From: Longimicrobiales bacterium
GTDB taxonomy: Bacteria > Gemmatimonadota > Gemmatimonadetes > Longimicrobiales > RSA9
Assembly: GCA_035461765.1 (NCBI GenBank)
Contig: DATHUY010000155.1
Span: 1 to 38,543, forward strand
Length of the DNA stretch: 38,543 nt
Direction: 5' to 3'
The notes under the pieces were generated by a model. It was not told the origin of the DNA. It searched no databases and saw only the letters and a program-made list of their open reading frames with translations. Position numbers and translations under genes: made by a program. Shown one piece after another: positions 19,117 through 21,929 of this stretch. The first letter of the stretch is position 1. Each line of letters starts with the position of its first letter.

Positions 19117-19953
19117 ATGCAGGAAGCAGTGTTGCGGGATCTCATTCGCCGGATCGGTGCGGACGCGGGTGTCAGCGCCCTCGCGATCACAGCATATGAC
19201 TTCGAGCACCGGACCGCCTGGTGCCTGGACAGCGATCGCTGGTTTCATGCCGCGAGCACCATAAAGGTGCCCGTGCTGCTCGGCGTATTCGACGCCATCG
19301 AGCAGGGGCGGCTGGAGCCGTACTCGCGCGTGCATGTCCGCAATCGCTTTCTCAGCATAATCGACGAGCGACCGTTCCGGGTGCAGTCGAGCCGCGATGC
19401 GAACGCCGAAGTCCACGCCGCGCTCGGCAAGATGCTGATGGTACGCGAGCTGGCGGAGCACATGATCGTCACGAGCAGCAACCTCGCGACGAACCTGCTG
19501 CTCGACATCGTCGGCGTCGACAACATCCGCGCAACCCTCGATCGGCTGAACCTCCACGGCATCGACCTGCGTCGCGCGGTGGAAGACGAGTCGGCGTGGG
19601 AAGCCGGCATCAACAACCGCATCACCGCCGATGGTCTCGCCGCTGCACTCCGCCTGATCGAGGAACGACGCGCCATCTCTGACAGCGCGTCCGACCAGAT
19701 GCTCGAGATCCTCCACAAGCAGCGCTTCCGCAGCGGTATCCCCGCAGGCCTGCCCGAGGAAGCCCGTGTCGCGAACAAGACCGGGGAGATGTCCACCGTG
19801 GCTCACGACGGCGGGATCGTCTACATCGAGGGCCGCAAGCCCTACGTGGTGGTCATCCTCACCGAATGGGAGAACGGCGGCGACAGCAGACAGGCGACGA
19901 TCGCCCGCATTTCGCGCGCGATCTACGAGTACATGTGCGAGGGGGCCGAATGA
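19117..19953 (+). CDS. Cytoplasmic class A beta-lactamase-fold serine hydrolase
   Basis: A 278-residue member of the beta-lactamase/transpeptidase fold. All class A landmarks are present: S47-T-I-K50 (SxxK), S120-S-N122 (SxN), E162-x3-N166 (matching the Glu166/Asn170 pair of TEM-type enzymes) and K221-T-G223. The N-terminus MQEAVLRDLIRRIGADAG is not a signal peptide and nothing upstream in frame supplies one, so it should stay in the cytoplasm. That argues against resistance or cell-wall work and suits a peptidase or amidase on an internal substrate. No clear Shine-Dalgarno precedes ATG 19117. Its stop overlaps the next start (ATGA). It is the first of three co-oriented genes. Confidence 0.85.
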   Translation: MQEAVLRDLIRRIGADAGVSALAITAYDFEHRTAWCLDSDRWFHAASTIKVPVLLGVFDAIEQGRLEPYSRVHVRNRFLSIIDERPFRVQSSRDANAEVHAALGKMLMVRELAEHMIVTSSNLATNLLLDIVGVDNIRATLDRLNLHGIDLRRAVEDESAWEAGINNRITADGLAAALRLIEERRAISDSASDQMLEILHKQRFRSGIPAGLPEEARVANKTGEMSTVAHDGGIVYIEGRKPYVVVILTEWENGGDSRQATIARISRAIYEYMCEGAE

Positions 19954-20552
19954 CGTTGCCGCTCCCCCTCGTCACTGCTGACGAGCTGCCCCAGGACGTG
20001 CGTCGCATCCTCGACCCGGGCGCCACCCTCTACGATGAGCAGGGCCGGCCCCACTCCCTGCCCCGTGCATTTCTCCGCATCGACAGCTGGCAGCAGGCAA
20101 TGGAAACGGAGCTCACACCTCATTTCATGCTGTGGGAGCTGATCGGCGTGGACGTGCGGGAGACGCCGCAGCTGCGAGGGTTTCCACGGTATGTTCCGTG
20201 CGCTCTCCTGATGCTGGCGACCGCGCTCGAGCTGTTCAGGCTGGAAGCGGGGTCCTACGTGCATATCGCGGCGAACGGCGGGTATCGCTCGCCCGGCCAC
20301 GCATTGAGTCGTCACGCCTCGAGGCACTGCTGGGGCACGGCCGCGAACATATACCGCGTCGGCGACACCTATCTGGACAGCCGCGCCGAGATCGAGAAGT
20401 ACGCGGCCGTAGCGCGGCGCGTACTGCCCGGCGTGTGGATCCGGCCGTACGGCATGGAGGATGGAGAGGCGGACGATCACCTGCACATCGACCTCGGGTA
20501 CACCGTGTTCGATCCATTCATGCAGGACGACAGAGTGGATTCCCAGGCGTAG
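19950..20552 (+). CDS. M15-like peptidase with altered zinc ligand
   Basis: A 200-residue protein of the D-Ala-D-Ala carboxypeptidase/M15 fold. The core has NGGYRSPGHALSRHASRHCWGTAANIY and DDHLHIDLGY. Comparison with the M15 pattern HxxGxAxD gives His126, Gly129 and Ala131, but Asn133 where the zinc-binding Asp is expected; the final ligand is His179. No signal peptide is visible, unlike cell-wall carboxypeptidases. ATG 19950 overlaps the stop of the upstream hydrolase (ATGA) and follows GAGGGGG. The ligase gene begins four bases after this stop. The enzyme may be inactive, may still bind metal through Asn, or may have a different substrate. Confidence 0.75.
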   Translation: MTLPLPLVTADELPQDVRRILDPGATLYDEQGRPHSLPRAFLRIDSWQQAMETELTPHFMLWELIGVDVRETPQLRGFPRYVPCALLMLATALELFRLEAGSYVHIAANGGYRSPGHALSRHASRHCWGTAANIYRVGDTYLDSRAEIEKYAAVARRVLPGVWIRPYGMEDGEADDHLHIDLGYTVFDPFMQDDRVDSQA

Positions 20553-20556
20553 CCAT

Positions 20557-21771
20557 ATGCAGTACACGAAGAAGCTGGACACCTCCTCCGCAACGCAGCG
20601 GCCGCGCCTCGCCGCGATGGGCATGGAAGCCGAGTTCGCCCTGGTCGTCAACGGCGAGCAGAAGCGGCCCGAAGACGTCTTTGGTTCACCCCGCGAATTC
20701 ATCCGCGGCAACCTGATGCATCGGCAGGGGACGTCGTATCATCTGCCGACGGGCGGCGCCGTGTATTTCGATACGGGTGTCATTGAAGTCGCGACGCCGG
20801 TGATCGAGATCGAACGCGGCTGCGCCGCGCGCGCCGGCAGGTCGCTCTGGGAATCGATCAACTTCATTCGTGCCGAGATGGACGAGTGGGATCTGCGCCA
20901 CGGCACGGACAGCACGCTGACCGGCTTCAGTGCGCATTACAACGTGTCGTTCGACGAGACACCGGGCGGACGTTCGAACGGGAGGAGCATCGAGGCCCTC
21001 GCGCACATGCTCACCTATGTGCTGCCGGCTCCCGTGATGCTGCTCGCCACGAACCGGCGCTCGACGGGTGTCGGCGTCCGCCCGCGCAAGGATCGCATCG
21101 AGATCACGGTGGACTTCACGCCCAGCCCCGCTCTGATGATCGCCACCGCGACTCTCATCGTCGGCATCGTACGTGACGCGATGACGTGGGACCGTTTCAG
21201 CCTCGATGAGCTGGACGCCCGCGACCTGCCGGTGATCCGCAACTTCAGGCCGGTGCCGCACACGTCACGCAAGGGTTGGCTCGCGCGGTTCAGCTGCTAT
21301 CCACACAACCCGTTCATGTCCGACATTGACGAGCCGATCTGGGACACGCGTCATCACGGCCGCCTCAGCCTGCGCACGATCTCGGGCAGGACTGTTCGCC
21401 ATTTCTGGCGCTCGATCCGGCGGATCTCCGATCCGTTCACGTTCCGGCTGATCGGCTCCGTCATCCGCGGCCGCAGCCCGTCCCTCCTCGAGCTGGACGA
21501 CCGGCCGGAAGAGTATGAGGATGTCGGTCGGCTGTGCGCGTGGGACGAGCTGTTCCCGCCGGCGCAGATGAACCGGTCACGCTACGAGCGCGTCCTCATC
21601 CGTGCCATATCCGGCCGCCGCCTGCGCGTCGACGGACGCATGCTCAGGCCCGTCGGCATGAAGGGCTGGTCTGCAGTGGTATTCGAAGAGGAAGGAAACG
21701 GGAGTCGCCGGACTATCGCAATCGATGATCTCATCGACCACCTCGATCGCTGGGAGCGGGAAGCGCGCTGA
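20557..21771 (+). CDS. GS/GCS-fold amidoligase, Pup-ligase/Dop-like
   Basis: A 404-residue protein of the glutamine synthetase/glutamate-cysteine ligase superfamily, which joins a carboxylate to an amine using ATP. Visible landmarks are MGMEAEF with Glu24 and Glu26 (first metal strand), PTGGAVYFDTGVIEVATP (residues 64-81), SAHYNVSF (His127, Asn129) and DRIEITVDFTPSPAL with Arg180. The order ExE, GAxYxD then ExATP, HxN resembles PafA/Dop (Pup ligase and deamidase), though the overall similarity is low and YbdK-type carboxylate-amine ligases are an alternative. No signal or membrane segment is present. It is the last gene of the trio, starting four bases after the M15-like gene and ending just before a strong terminator. 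The substrate is unknown. Confidence 0.75.
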   Translation: MQYTKKLDTSSATQRPRLAAMGMEAEFALVVNGEQKRPEDVFGSPREFIRGNLMHRQGTSYHLPTGGAVYFDTGVIEVATPVIEIERGCAARAGRSLWESINFIRAEMDEWDLRHGTDSTLTGFSAHYNVSFDETPGGRSNGRSIEALAHMLTYVLPAPVMLLATNRRSTGVGVRPRKDRIEITVDFTPSPALMIATATLIVGIVRDAMTWDRFSLDELDARDLPVIRNFRPVPHTSRKGWLARFSCYPHNPFMSDIDEPIWDTRHHGRLSLRTISGRTVRHFWRSIRRISDPFTFRLIGSVIRGRSPSLLELDDRPEEYEDVGRLCAWDELFPPAQMNRSRYERVLIRAISGRRLRVDGRMLRPVGMKGWSAVVFEEEGNGSRRTIAIDDLIDHLDRWEREAR

Positions 21772-21784
21772 GGCAGCCTGCCGG

Positions 21785-21829
21785 AAAGCCCGATGCGCCG
21801 GCACGTTTACGGCCGGCGCATCGGGCTTT
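21785..21829. terminator. Strong intrinsic terminator after the amidoligase operon
   Basis: An 18-bp perfect inverted repeat (AAAGCCCGATGCGCCGGC and its complement) flanks a 9-nt loop, and ATCTTTCATT follows. It closes the 19117-21771 operon 13 nt after its last stop. It could also block readthrough from the other side. tRNA-Ser begins 14 nt downstream. Confidence 0.88.
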
Positions 21830-21843
21830 ATCTTTCATTGCCG

Positions 21844-21929
21844 GGAGGGGTGTCCGAGCGGTTTAAGGAGCTGGTCTTGAAAACCAGTGAGGGCGCAAGC
21901 CCCCGTGGGTTCGAATCCCACCCCCTCCG
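21844..21929 (+). tRNA. tRNA-Ser (anticodon TGA)
   Basis: An 86-nt class II tRNA. The acceptor stem GGAGGGG/CCCCTCC is complete, and the anticodon stem CTGGT/ACCAG encloses CTTGAAA with TGA at 34-36 (reads UCA). A long variable arm (GTGAGGGCGCAAGCCCCC region) and the T arm GTGGG-TTCGAAT-CCCAC follow. The long variable arm is diagnostic for serine. CCA is not encoded; TTT follows the discriminator G. The sequence from 21930 to 22076 up to the end of purH holds nothing I recognise. Confidence 0.96.

Follow-up and report, generated by a model that had tools for sequence, protein, structure and literature searches.

What would a ligase-like protein related to the pupylation enzymes PafA and Dop do in a genome that has no Pup, and why would it be encoded together with two proteins of murein-peptidase fold? 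These questions are raised by a three-gene operon (the trio) in a 38,543-nucleotide stretch of DNA from a Longimicrobiales bacterium of the Gemmatimonadota (assembly GCA_035461765.1, contig DATHUY010000155.1, positions 1 to 38,543), here called the window, the genome that contains it being the window genome. The trio encodes a serine hydrolase (protein 1), an M15-like protein (protein 2), and a carboxylate–amine ligase-like protein (protein 3, the ligase). Based on the conservation of these genes, the predicted folds of their products, and the genomic association of the trio with the gene for Mpl, we propose that the trio constitutes a cytoplasmic module for salvaging or editing what we infer to be small murein stem peptides, a reading that we consider evenly balanced between being right and being wrong. 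The features on which the argument draws are the following.

19117–19953, + strand: putative cytoplasmic serine hydrolase of class-A beta-lactamase/DD-peptidase fold, 278 aa (PF13354, conserved motifs, no signal peptide)
19950–20552, + strand: M15-like protein (zinc DD-peptidase or L-Ala-D-Glu peptidase fold), 200 aa (PF08291 in homologues, PHROG and fold matches)
20557–21771, + strand: predicted GS-fold carboxylate–amine ligase-like protein of the PafA/Dop branch, 404 aa (predicted structure, hhalign)
20749–20799, + strand: ligase residues 65–81 (TGGAVYFDTGVIEVATP), aligned to the PafA/Dop catalytic-Asp motif, with the D72 codon at 20770–20772
20935–20943, + strand: ligase H127-x-N129, the [HQ]x[NH] strand-4 motif of the superfamily (motif as defined in PMC2588565)
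21079–21114, + strand: ligase residues 175–186 (RPRKDRIEITVD), with R175, R177, R180, E182, and D186 invariant in 100/100 homologues
21544–21768, + strand: predicted ligase C-terminal domain (approximately residues 330–404), corresponding to the small domain that has been called unique to the enzymes of pupylation, with W371 invariant
21785–21829, + strand: intrinsic-terminator-like hairpin closing the operon (folding energy compared with shuffles)

Linkage and mobility of the three genes

The original prediction described three same-strand genes joined by an ATGA overlap (genes 1 and 2) and a 4-nt gap (genes 2 and 3), closed by a strong terminator and encoding proteins without signal peptides, and each of these points was confirmed. 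The hairpin region folds at −48.4 kcal/mol (z −6.9 relative to shuffles), and a tRNA-Ser lies 3′ of it (21844–21929). A generic terminator scan did not list the hairpin, probably because its stem and loop exceed the limits of the scan. No signal-peptide-like N terminus was found in the trio proteins, whose peak 12-residue Kyte-Doolittle means over the first 45 residues are 1.6, 0.8, and 1.4, respectively.

The same prediction was staked on co-occurrence of the genes in related genomes, which we examined by using loci from 61 related genomes and from a GTDB genome scan that added 80 further loci, with 395 Gemmatimonadota genomes serving for occurrence counts. The genes do travel together, and every locus in which the complete trio was detected shows the same gene order and strand (96/96). 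Among the 61 relatives, the ligase is present in 23 and the M15-like protein in 21, every one of them ligase-positive, and the presence of the two proteins agrees in 59 genomes. In the two ligase-only relatives, the ligase gene sits at a contig start (G023) or the fetched locus runs out near a contig end (G053). The ligase occurs in 46 of the 395 Gemmatimonadota genomes, and the GTDB loci span Gemmatimonadota, Ramlibacter/Caenimonas, Verrucomicrobia (including Chthoniobacter flavus), an Acidobacteria metagenome-assembled genome (MAG), and Rhodothermaceae-type MAGs.

A separate tree was constructed for each of the three proteins, and in every tree the window locus and its partner (L001 and L002) join Ramlibacter with support of 95–99. 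Because all three gene trees place the window with Ramlibacter, the phylogenies indicate that the trio has moved between phyla as a single block. For 17 Ramlibacter loci, the 1.5 kb on each side of the trio is not conserved (flanks align in approximately 2% of locus pairs), and therefore no fourth gene appears to be required in this genus. Likewise, neither a conserved fourth gene nor a Pup-like open reading frame was found in the Ramlibacter flanks, where very short reading frames would escape detection.

Other origins for the block were also considered. A defence origin was rejected because none of the three proteins was matched in PADLOC, and a phage origin was rejected because the ligase has no PHROG match and the M15-like protein matches only an endolysin PHROG (E = 2.8e-6). 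No plasmid carriage of the ligase was found in PLSDB.

Several features surround the trio or vary among its loci. In Chthoniobacter flavus, a HIT-domain gene (PF01230; L083, 8017–8517) immediately precedes the serine hydrolase gene and comes after lpxB; a HIT gene in this position was seen only in Verrucomicrobia. About 20 Verrucomicrobia loci have a conserved cluster of upstream reading frames, and no such cluster was seen outside this phylum. The ligase is broken by in-frame stops (TAG, TGA) in a few genomes (L019, L061, G010:C177), reflecting either decay or assembly error. In the window, a glucose/sorbosone dehydrogenase gene (PF07995; 17868–19019, − strand) diverges from the trio and has no apparent functional link to it.

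Predicted folds and motifs of the proteins

When searched alone, the window M15-like protein and ligase matched no Pfam or NCBIfam model. Moreover, PF03136, the PafA/Dop model, gave no match at E ≤ 10 to 19 ligase family members, and sequence searches of the PDB with the ligase (phmmer and profile) recovered no relative. For an AlphaFold2 model of the ligase (pLDDT 84, pTM 0.86), both Foldseek and VIA-align rank Dop and PafA first. The VIA-align Z-scores are 20.5 for Dop (5lrt, over 341 residues), 18.9 for PafA (4bjr), and 16.9 for YbdK, followed by 11–15 for GCS and 9–10 for GS. This comparison bears out the earlier proposal that the protein is PafA/Dop-like and lies within the GS/GCS superfamily. 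The Dop match reaches residue 404, whereas the YbdK match stops at residue 328, and the part of the ligase covered only by the former corresponds to a C-terminal domain that has been called unique to pupylation enzymes (PMC8599861). Ligase W371 is aligned with a Trp of the Dop C-terminal domain, and the sequence profile of the C-terminal part alone gives a weak match (E = 0.036). As for the extreme C termini, one Gemmatimonadota family of ligases ends in -RGG, and Verrucomicrobia ligases carry Lys/Arg-rich tails.

Members of this superfamily act on glutamyl carboxylates and share a GhExE motif in strand 1, acidic residues in strands 2 and 3, an [HQ]x[NH] motif in strand 4, and a conserved Arg pair (PMC2588565). 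The ligase carries the corresponding set, namely G22-M-E24-A-E26, E77/E84, H127-Y-N129, and R175/R177/R180. The motifs previously pointed out, ExE at residues 24–26, an Asp/ATP-type stretch ending at residue 81, and HxN at residues 127–129, are all present at those positions as GMEAEF, GGAVYFDTGVIEVATP (residues 66–81), and HYN, and are invariant or nearly so among 100 homologues. The same holds for individual residues E24, E26, D72, E77, E84, H127, N129, R175, R177, R180, E182, D186, H235, and R238, and D72 is found in 99 of the 99 homologues in which that alignment column is filled.

A profile comparison was made against an alignment built from Verrucomicrobia PafA and Dop. By using hhalign (E = 6.6e-5), GMEAEF was placed on GhExE and TGGAVYFDTGVIEVATP on the catalytic-Asp motif NGxRxYxDxxHxEYxxPE; with the 100-sequence ligase alignment the score was 41, and none of 150 column shuffles scored above 29.5. 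For the central part of the ligase (strands 4–6), no significant profile alignment to PafA/Dop was obtained, and the equivalences there are by fold match and eye. More generally, strand assignments beyond the first motifs derive from the predicted model and from inspection by eye. Together, the modelled structure and these motifs lead us to predict a PafA/Dop-type GS fold for the third gene product, in which the ATP/metal motifs are all intact and the catalytic Asp of PafA/Dop is present.

The assignments of the two partner proteins are as follows. Protein 1 matches PF13354 over the whole domain (E = 4.8e-48), and its nearest PDB relatives are class A beta-lactamases. Its sequence contains the complete class-A serine-hydrolase motif set (SxxK, SxN, KTG); S47xxK50, S120-S-N122, and K221-T-G are kept in nearly all of 97 homologues. 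The score of the protein against the curated class A beta-lactamase model (95.6 bits) is far below the cut-off of 200. For protein 2, a PDB sequence search with the family profile recovered no relative, and PF08291 (Peptidase_M15_3) is matched by 11 of 17 homologues (best E = 2.9e-4) and not by the window protein itself. The best fold match to its predicted model is the 1lbu DD-peptidase, with a moderate Z-score of 7.7, and ChiX, Hedgehog, and Ply500 are also matched. Residues H126, D176, and H179 are conserved, and the position of the second zinc ligand is Asn in 84 and Asp in 13 of 97 homologues. Protein 2 is predicted to have an M15 fold with most of a putative zinc site.

Association with Mpl and candidate reactions

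Class-A serine hydrolases and M15 proteins, the folds of both partners, classically cut murein peptides. The cell-wall idea suggested by these two peptidase folds prompted a search for Mpl (TIGR01081, with Mpl-type proteins called at E ≤ 1e-75), which puts stem peptides back onto UDP-MurNAc (PMC11980594). Among the 395 Gemmatimonadota genomes, Mpl is present in 40 of 46 with the trio versus 29 of 349 without it (Fisher 1e-29), and at the genus level in 18 of 18 trio genera versus 15 of 120 others (6e-14). It was also detected in 13 of 14 trio genomes reached via the GTDB loci, mostly Ramlibacter or Verrucomicrobia, a set for which only trio genomes were counted. The co-occurrence of the trio with Mpl is a new observation.

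The association extends to gene neighbourhoods. In 19 genomes, the Mpl gene lies at most 9 kb from the ligase gene. The two genes are on opposite strands in every case; most are convergent, with Mpl immediately following the ligase gene (15 nt to 1 kb away in the closest), and those of one genus are divergent. An S66/LdcA-type carboxypeptidase is found in 21 of 23 trio relatives versus 11 of 38 others. In several order-level relatives of group f2 that lack the trio, Mpl is beside an S66/LdcA-type gene, and trio genomes of other families often have the trio instead. In nine loci from one Gemmatimonadaceae clade, the trio is directly downstream of a DppB-type permease gene, and the loci that reach far enough have a gene for an SBP_bac_5 peptide-binding protein just upstream of the permease. 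Uptake of murein tripeptide, in which D-Glu is gamma-linked to meso-diaminopimelate (mDAP), depends on MppA, a binding protein of the SBP_bac_5 class (PMC6022919). This context (Mpl and the peptide-transport operon) makes a small murein peptide a likelier substrate than a protein tag.

If a murein peptide is indeed the substrate, the two partner proteins might act in the cytoplasm to shorten stem peptides that derive from import or turnover, by D,D-, L,D-type, or L-Ala-D-Glu cleavages. Such cleavages are typical of the class-A serine hydrolase and M15 folds. The ligase would use ATP to convert a gamma-glutamyl carboxylate into an activated acyl phosphate, and D72 would deprotonate the incoming amine to yield a gamma-glutamyl amide. 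One candidate reaction would join L-Ala-D-Glu and mDAP, at the expense of ATP, to form murein tripeptide that is then used by Mpl. Alternatively, the ligase may act in reverse and break such a gamma-glutamyl bond by Dop-like hydrolysis. No single reaction of the ligase is given even chances by us.

Several observations weigh against the assignment of the trio to murein peptides. The genomes are not independent, and the link to Mpl could reflect lineage or shared ecology. Applying the curated Mpl cut-off lowers the counts to 30 of 46 trio genomes and 19 of 349 others. Mpl was not detected in 6 of the 46 trio genomes, two of which are 99% complete, nor in a Rhodothermaceae MAG, and in the window genome the trio and Mpl are on different contigs. 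The presence of LdcA-type enzymes means that the trio is not a simple replacement of a known recycling step. Finally, with Asn at the second zinc ligand in most homologues, the M15-like protein may not be a standard peptidase.

The strongest alternative, although we consider it unlikely, is a small-peptide metabolite pathway in which the ligase joins a glutamyl carboxylate and an amine to form a dipeptide-like cofactor or secondary metabolite, while the hydrolases process precursors or degrade the product. Most GS/GCS-fold relatives make small molecules, and uncharacterised ones have been given such a role (PMC2588565); a mobile three-gene block with no conserved fourth gene in Ramlibacter would also suit this explanation. 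However, it predicts neither the co-occurrence and adjacency of Mpl nor two murein-peptidase folds, and no linked tailoring, export, or carrier gene was seen.

Somewhat less probable still is a purely degradative trio, in which the third protein is a Dop-like hydrolase or amidase (with ADP/Pi as catalytic cofactor) that strips an amide or gamma-linked group off peptides, either those of murein or others. Among the structural matches Dop ranks first, the partner proteins are hydrolases, and the Asp motif serves hydrolysis in Dop as well. Nevertheless, the Dop and PafA Z-scores are close, and the ligase has no Dop-loop, its ExE and Asp motifs being separated by approximately 44 residues as in PafA rather than the approximately 84 of Dop. 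Strand 6 holds His or Gln in Dop and PafA and Glu in the rest of the superfamily (PMC2588565); the ligase family has the invariant E182 in the stretch that we tentatively assign to this strand from a by-eye alignment.

We regard protein tagging as improbable. In this scheme, the ligase would attach a small tag to lysines, and the hydrolases would mature or remove it. The nearest folds are those of the Pup ligase/depupylase pair, including the pupylation-type C-terminal domain (PMC8599861) and the catalytic Asp. However, the absence of Pup-like and proteasome genes noted earlier for the window holds for the whole window genome, which yielded no match to PF03136 (PafA/Dop) or PF05639 (Pup) and whose sole proteasome-fold protein is HslV. 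With no Pup, PafA, Dop, or 20S-type proteasome there, Pup-based tagging was rejected for the window genome. PF03136 also had no match in the 61 genomes searched, and no conserved reading frame, very short ones aside, adjoins the trio in Ramlibacter. Chthoniobacter-type Verrucomicrobia genomes with the trio carry true PafA and Dop elsewhere, and therefore the trio ligase represents a separate family. For these two reasons, the lack of pupylation genes in the window genome and the separate PafA/Dop pair in Verrucomicrobia, we conclude that the trio is not a pupylation system. In three of the Chthoniobacter-type genomes (G061, G066, G067), the true PafA and Dop genes are on different contigs and not visibly side by side.

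Chance neighbours that share a promoter and no pathway can be set aside almost entirely, since the 96 loci over several phyla and the agreement of three trees on the key branch refute this idea at the level of linkage, and no point in its support was found.

The murein-peptide proposal can be taken further, in a form that we consider doubtful. A third branch of PafA/Dop-type enzymes might act on murein peptides within a dedicated three-gene recycling module, making or breaking a gamma-D-glutamyl amide, such that the pupylation enzymes would have the catalytic Asp and the C-terminal domain in common with a cell-wall peptide salvage enzyme, from which they may have arisen. The origin of the Pup ligase and depupylase is unsettled, with a GCS2-like precursor having been proposed (PMC2588565), and a Pup-less family with the catalytic-Asp motif and, as judged by structure, the C-terminal domain provides an outgroup that can be tested. 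Should the link to murein prove right, the trio adds a three-enzyme step to peptidoglycan recycling, one that is invisible to current annotation because neither the M15-like protein nor the ligase of the window matches any Pfam or NCBIfam model alone. Cultured hosts exist (Ramlibacter, Chthoniobacter flavus), which makes the question accessible at the bench.

Comparison with known systems

The folds and the superfamily are already known. No published description of the ligase family, of a PafA/Dop affinity outside pupylation, or of the three-gene module was found in the literature covered, which excludes the 2009 amidoligase survey, and within that scope all three appear to be new.

Protein 1 shares the SxxK, SxN, and KTG motifs and the domain match with class A beta-lactamase-like serine hydrolases (PF13354), but differs from class A beta-lactamases in being apparently cytoplasmic, with no export signal peptide and a score below that of curated beta-lactamases. 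Protein 2 shares its predicted fold and the HxxGxA(N/D) and D-H-x-H-x-D motifs with M15 peptidases (the 1lbu DD-peptidase and the L-Ala-D-Glu endopeptidases ChiX and Ply500). Unlike these enzymes, it lacks a signal peptide and begins with approximately 55 residues outside the matched fold, and in most members of its family the second zinc-ligand position is occupied by Asn rather than Asp. A role for protein 2 as an LdcA substitute was rejected, given the S66 enzymes of the trio relatives.

With GCS2/YbdK proteins, the ligase has in common the fold of the catalytic domain (Z 16.9) and the superfamily ATP/metal motifs. However, the structural match does not extend into the C-terminal domain, and the window genome encodes three GCS2 proteins besides the ligase. 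Membership in GCS2/YbdK was rejected because there is no Pfam match to PF04107 and no in-register profile match (hhalign against same-phylum GCS2 gave E = 0.17, out of register). One of the three GCS2 proteins (G000:C4:33680-34510) resides within an open frame of approximately 1,070 residues and is perhaps a fusion.

Relative to the murein-peptide recycling set (Mpl, LdcA, AmpD, MppA/Opp), no trio protein is a described recycling enzyme, and LdcA-type and Mpl genes exist in addition to the trio; nevertheless, the trio is associated with Mpl, with S66 carboxypeptidases, and with peptide-transport genes.

In comparison with PafA/Dop (PF03136), the trio ligase is too distant in sequence for the Pfam model, is about 400 residues long, and has no Dop-loop, and its genes come with no Pup gene or proteasome link, the partners instead being a class-A serine hydrolase and an M15-like protein. 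In common with PafA/Dop, it has a predicted GS-fold catalytic domain followed by a C-terminal domain, the GhExE and HxN motifs, and the catalytic-Asp motif YxDxGxxExxxP, spaced as in Verrucomicrobia PafA. At the catalytic Asp position, where the PafA–Pup crystal construct 4bjr carries Asn, the trio ligase has D72.

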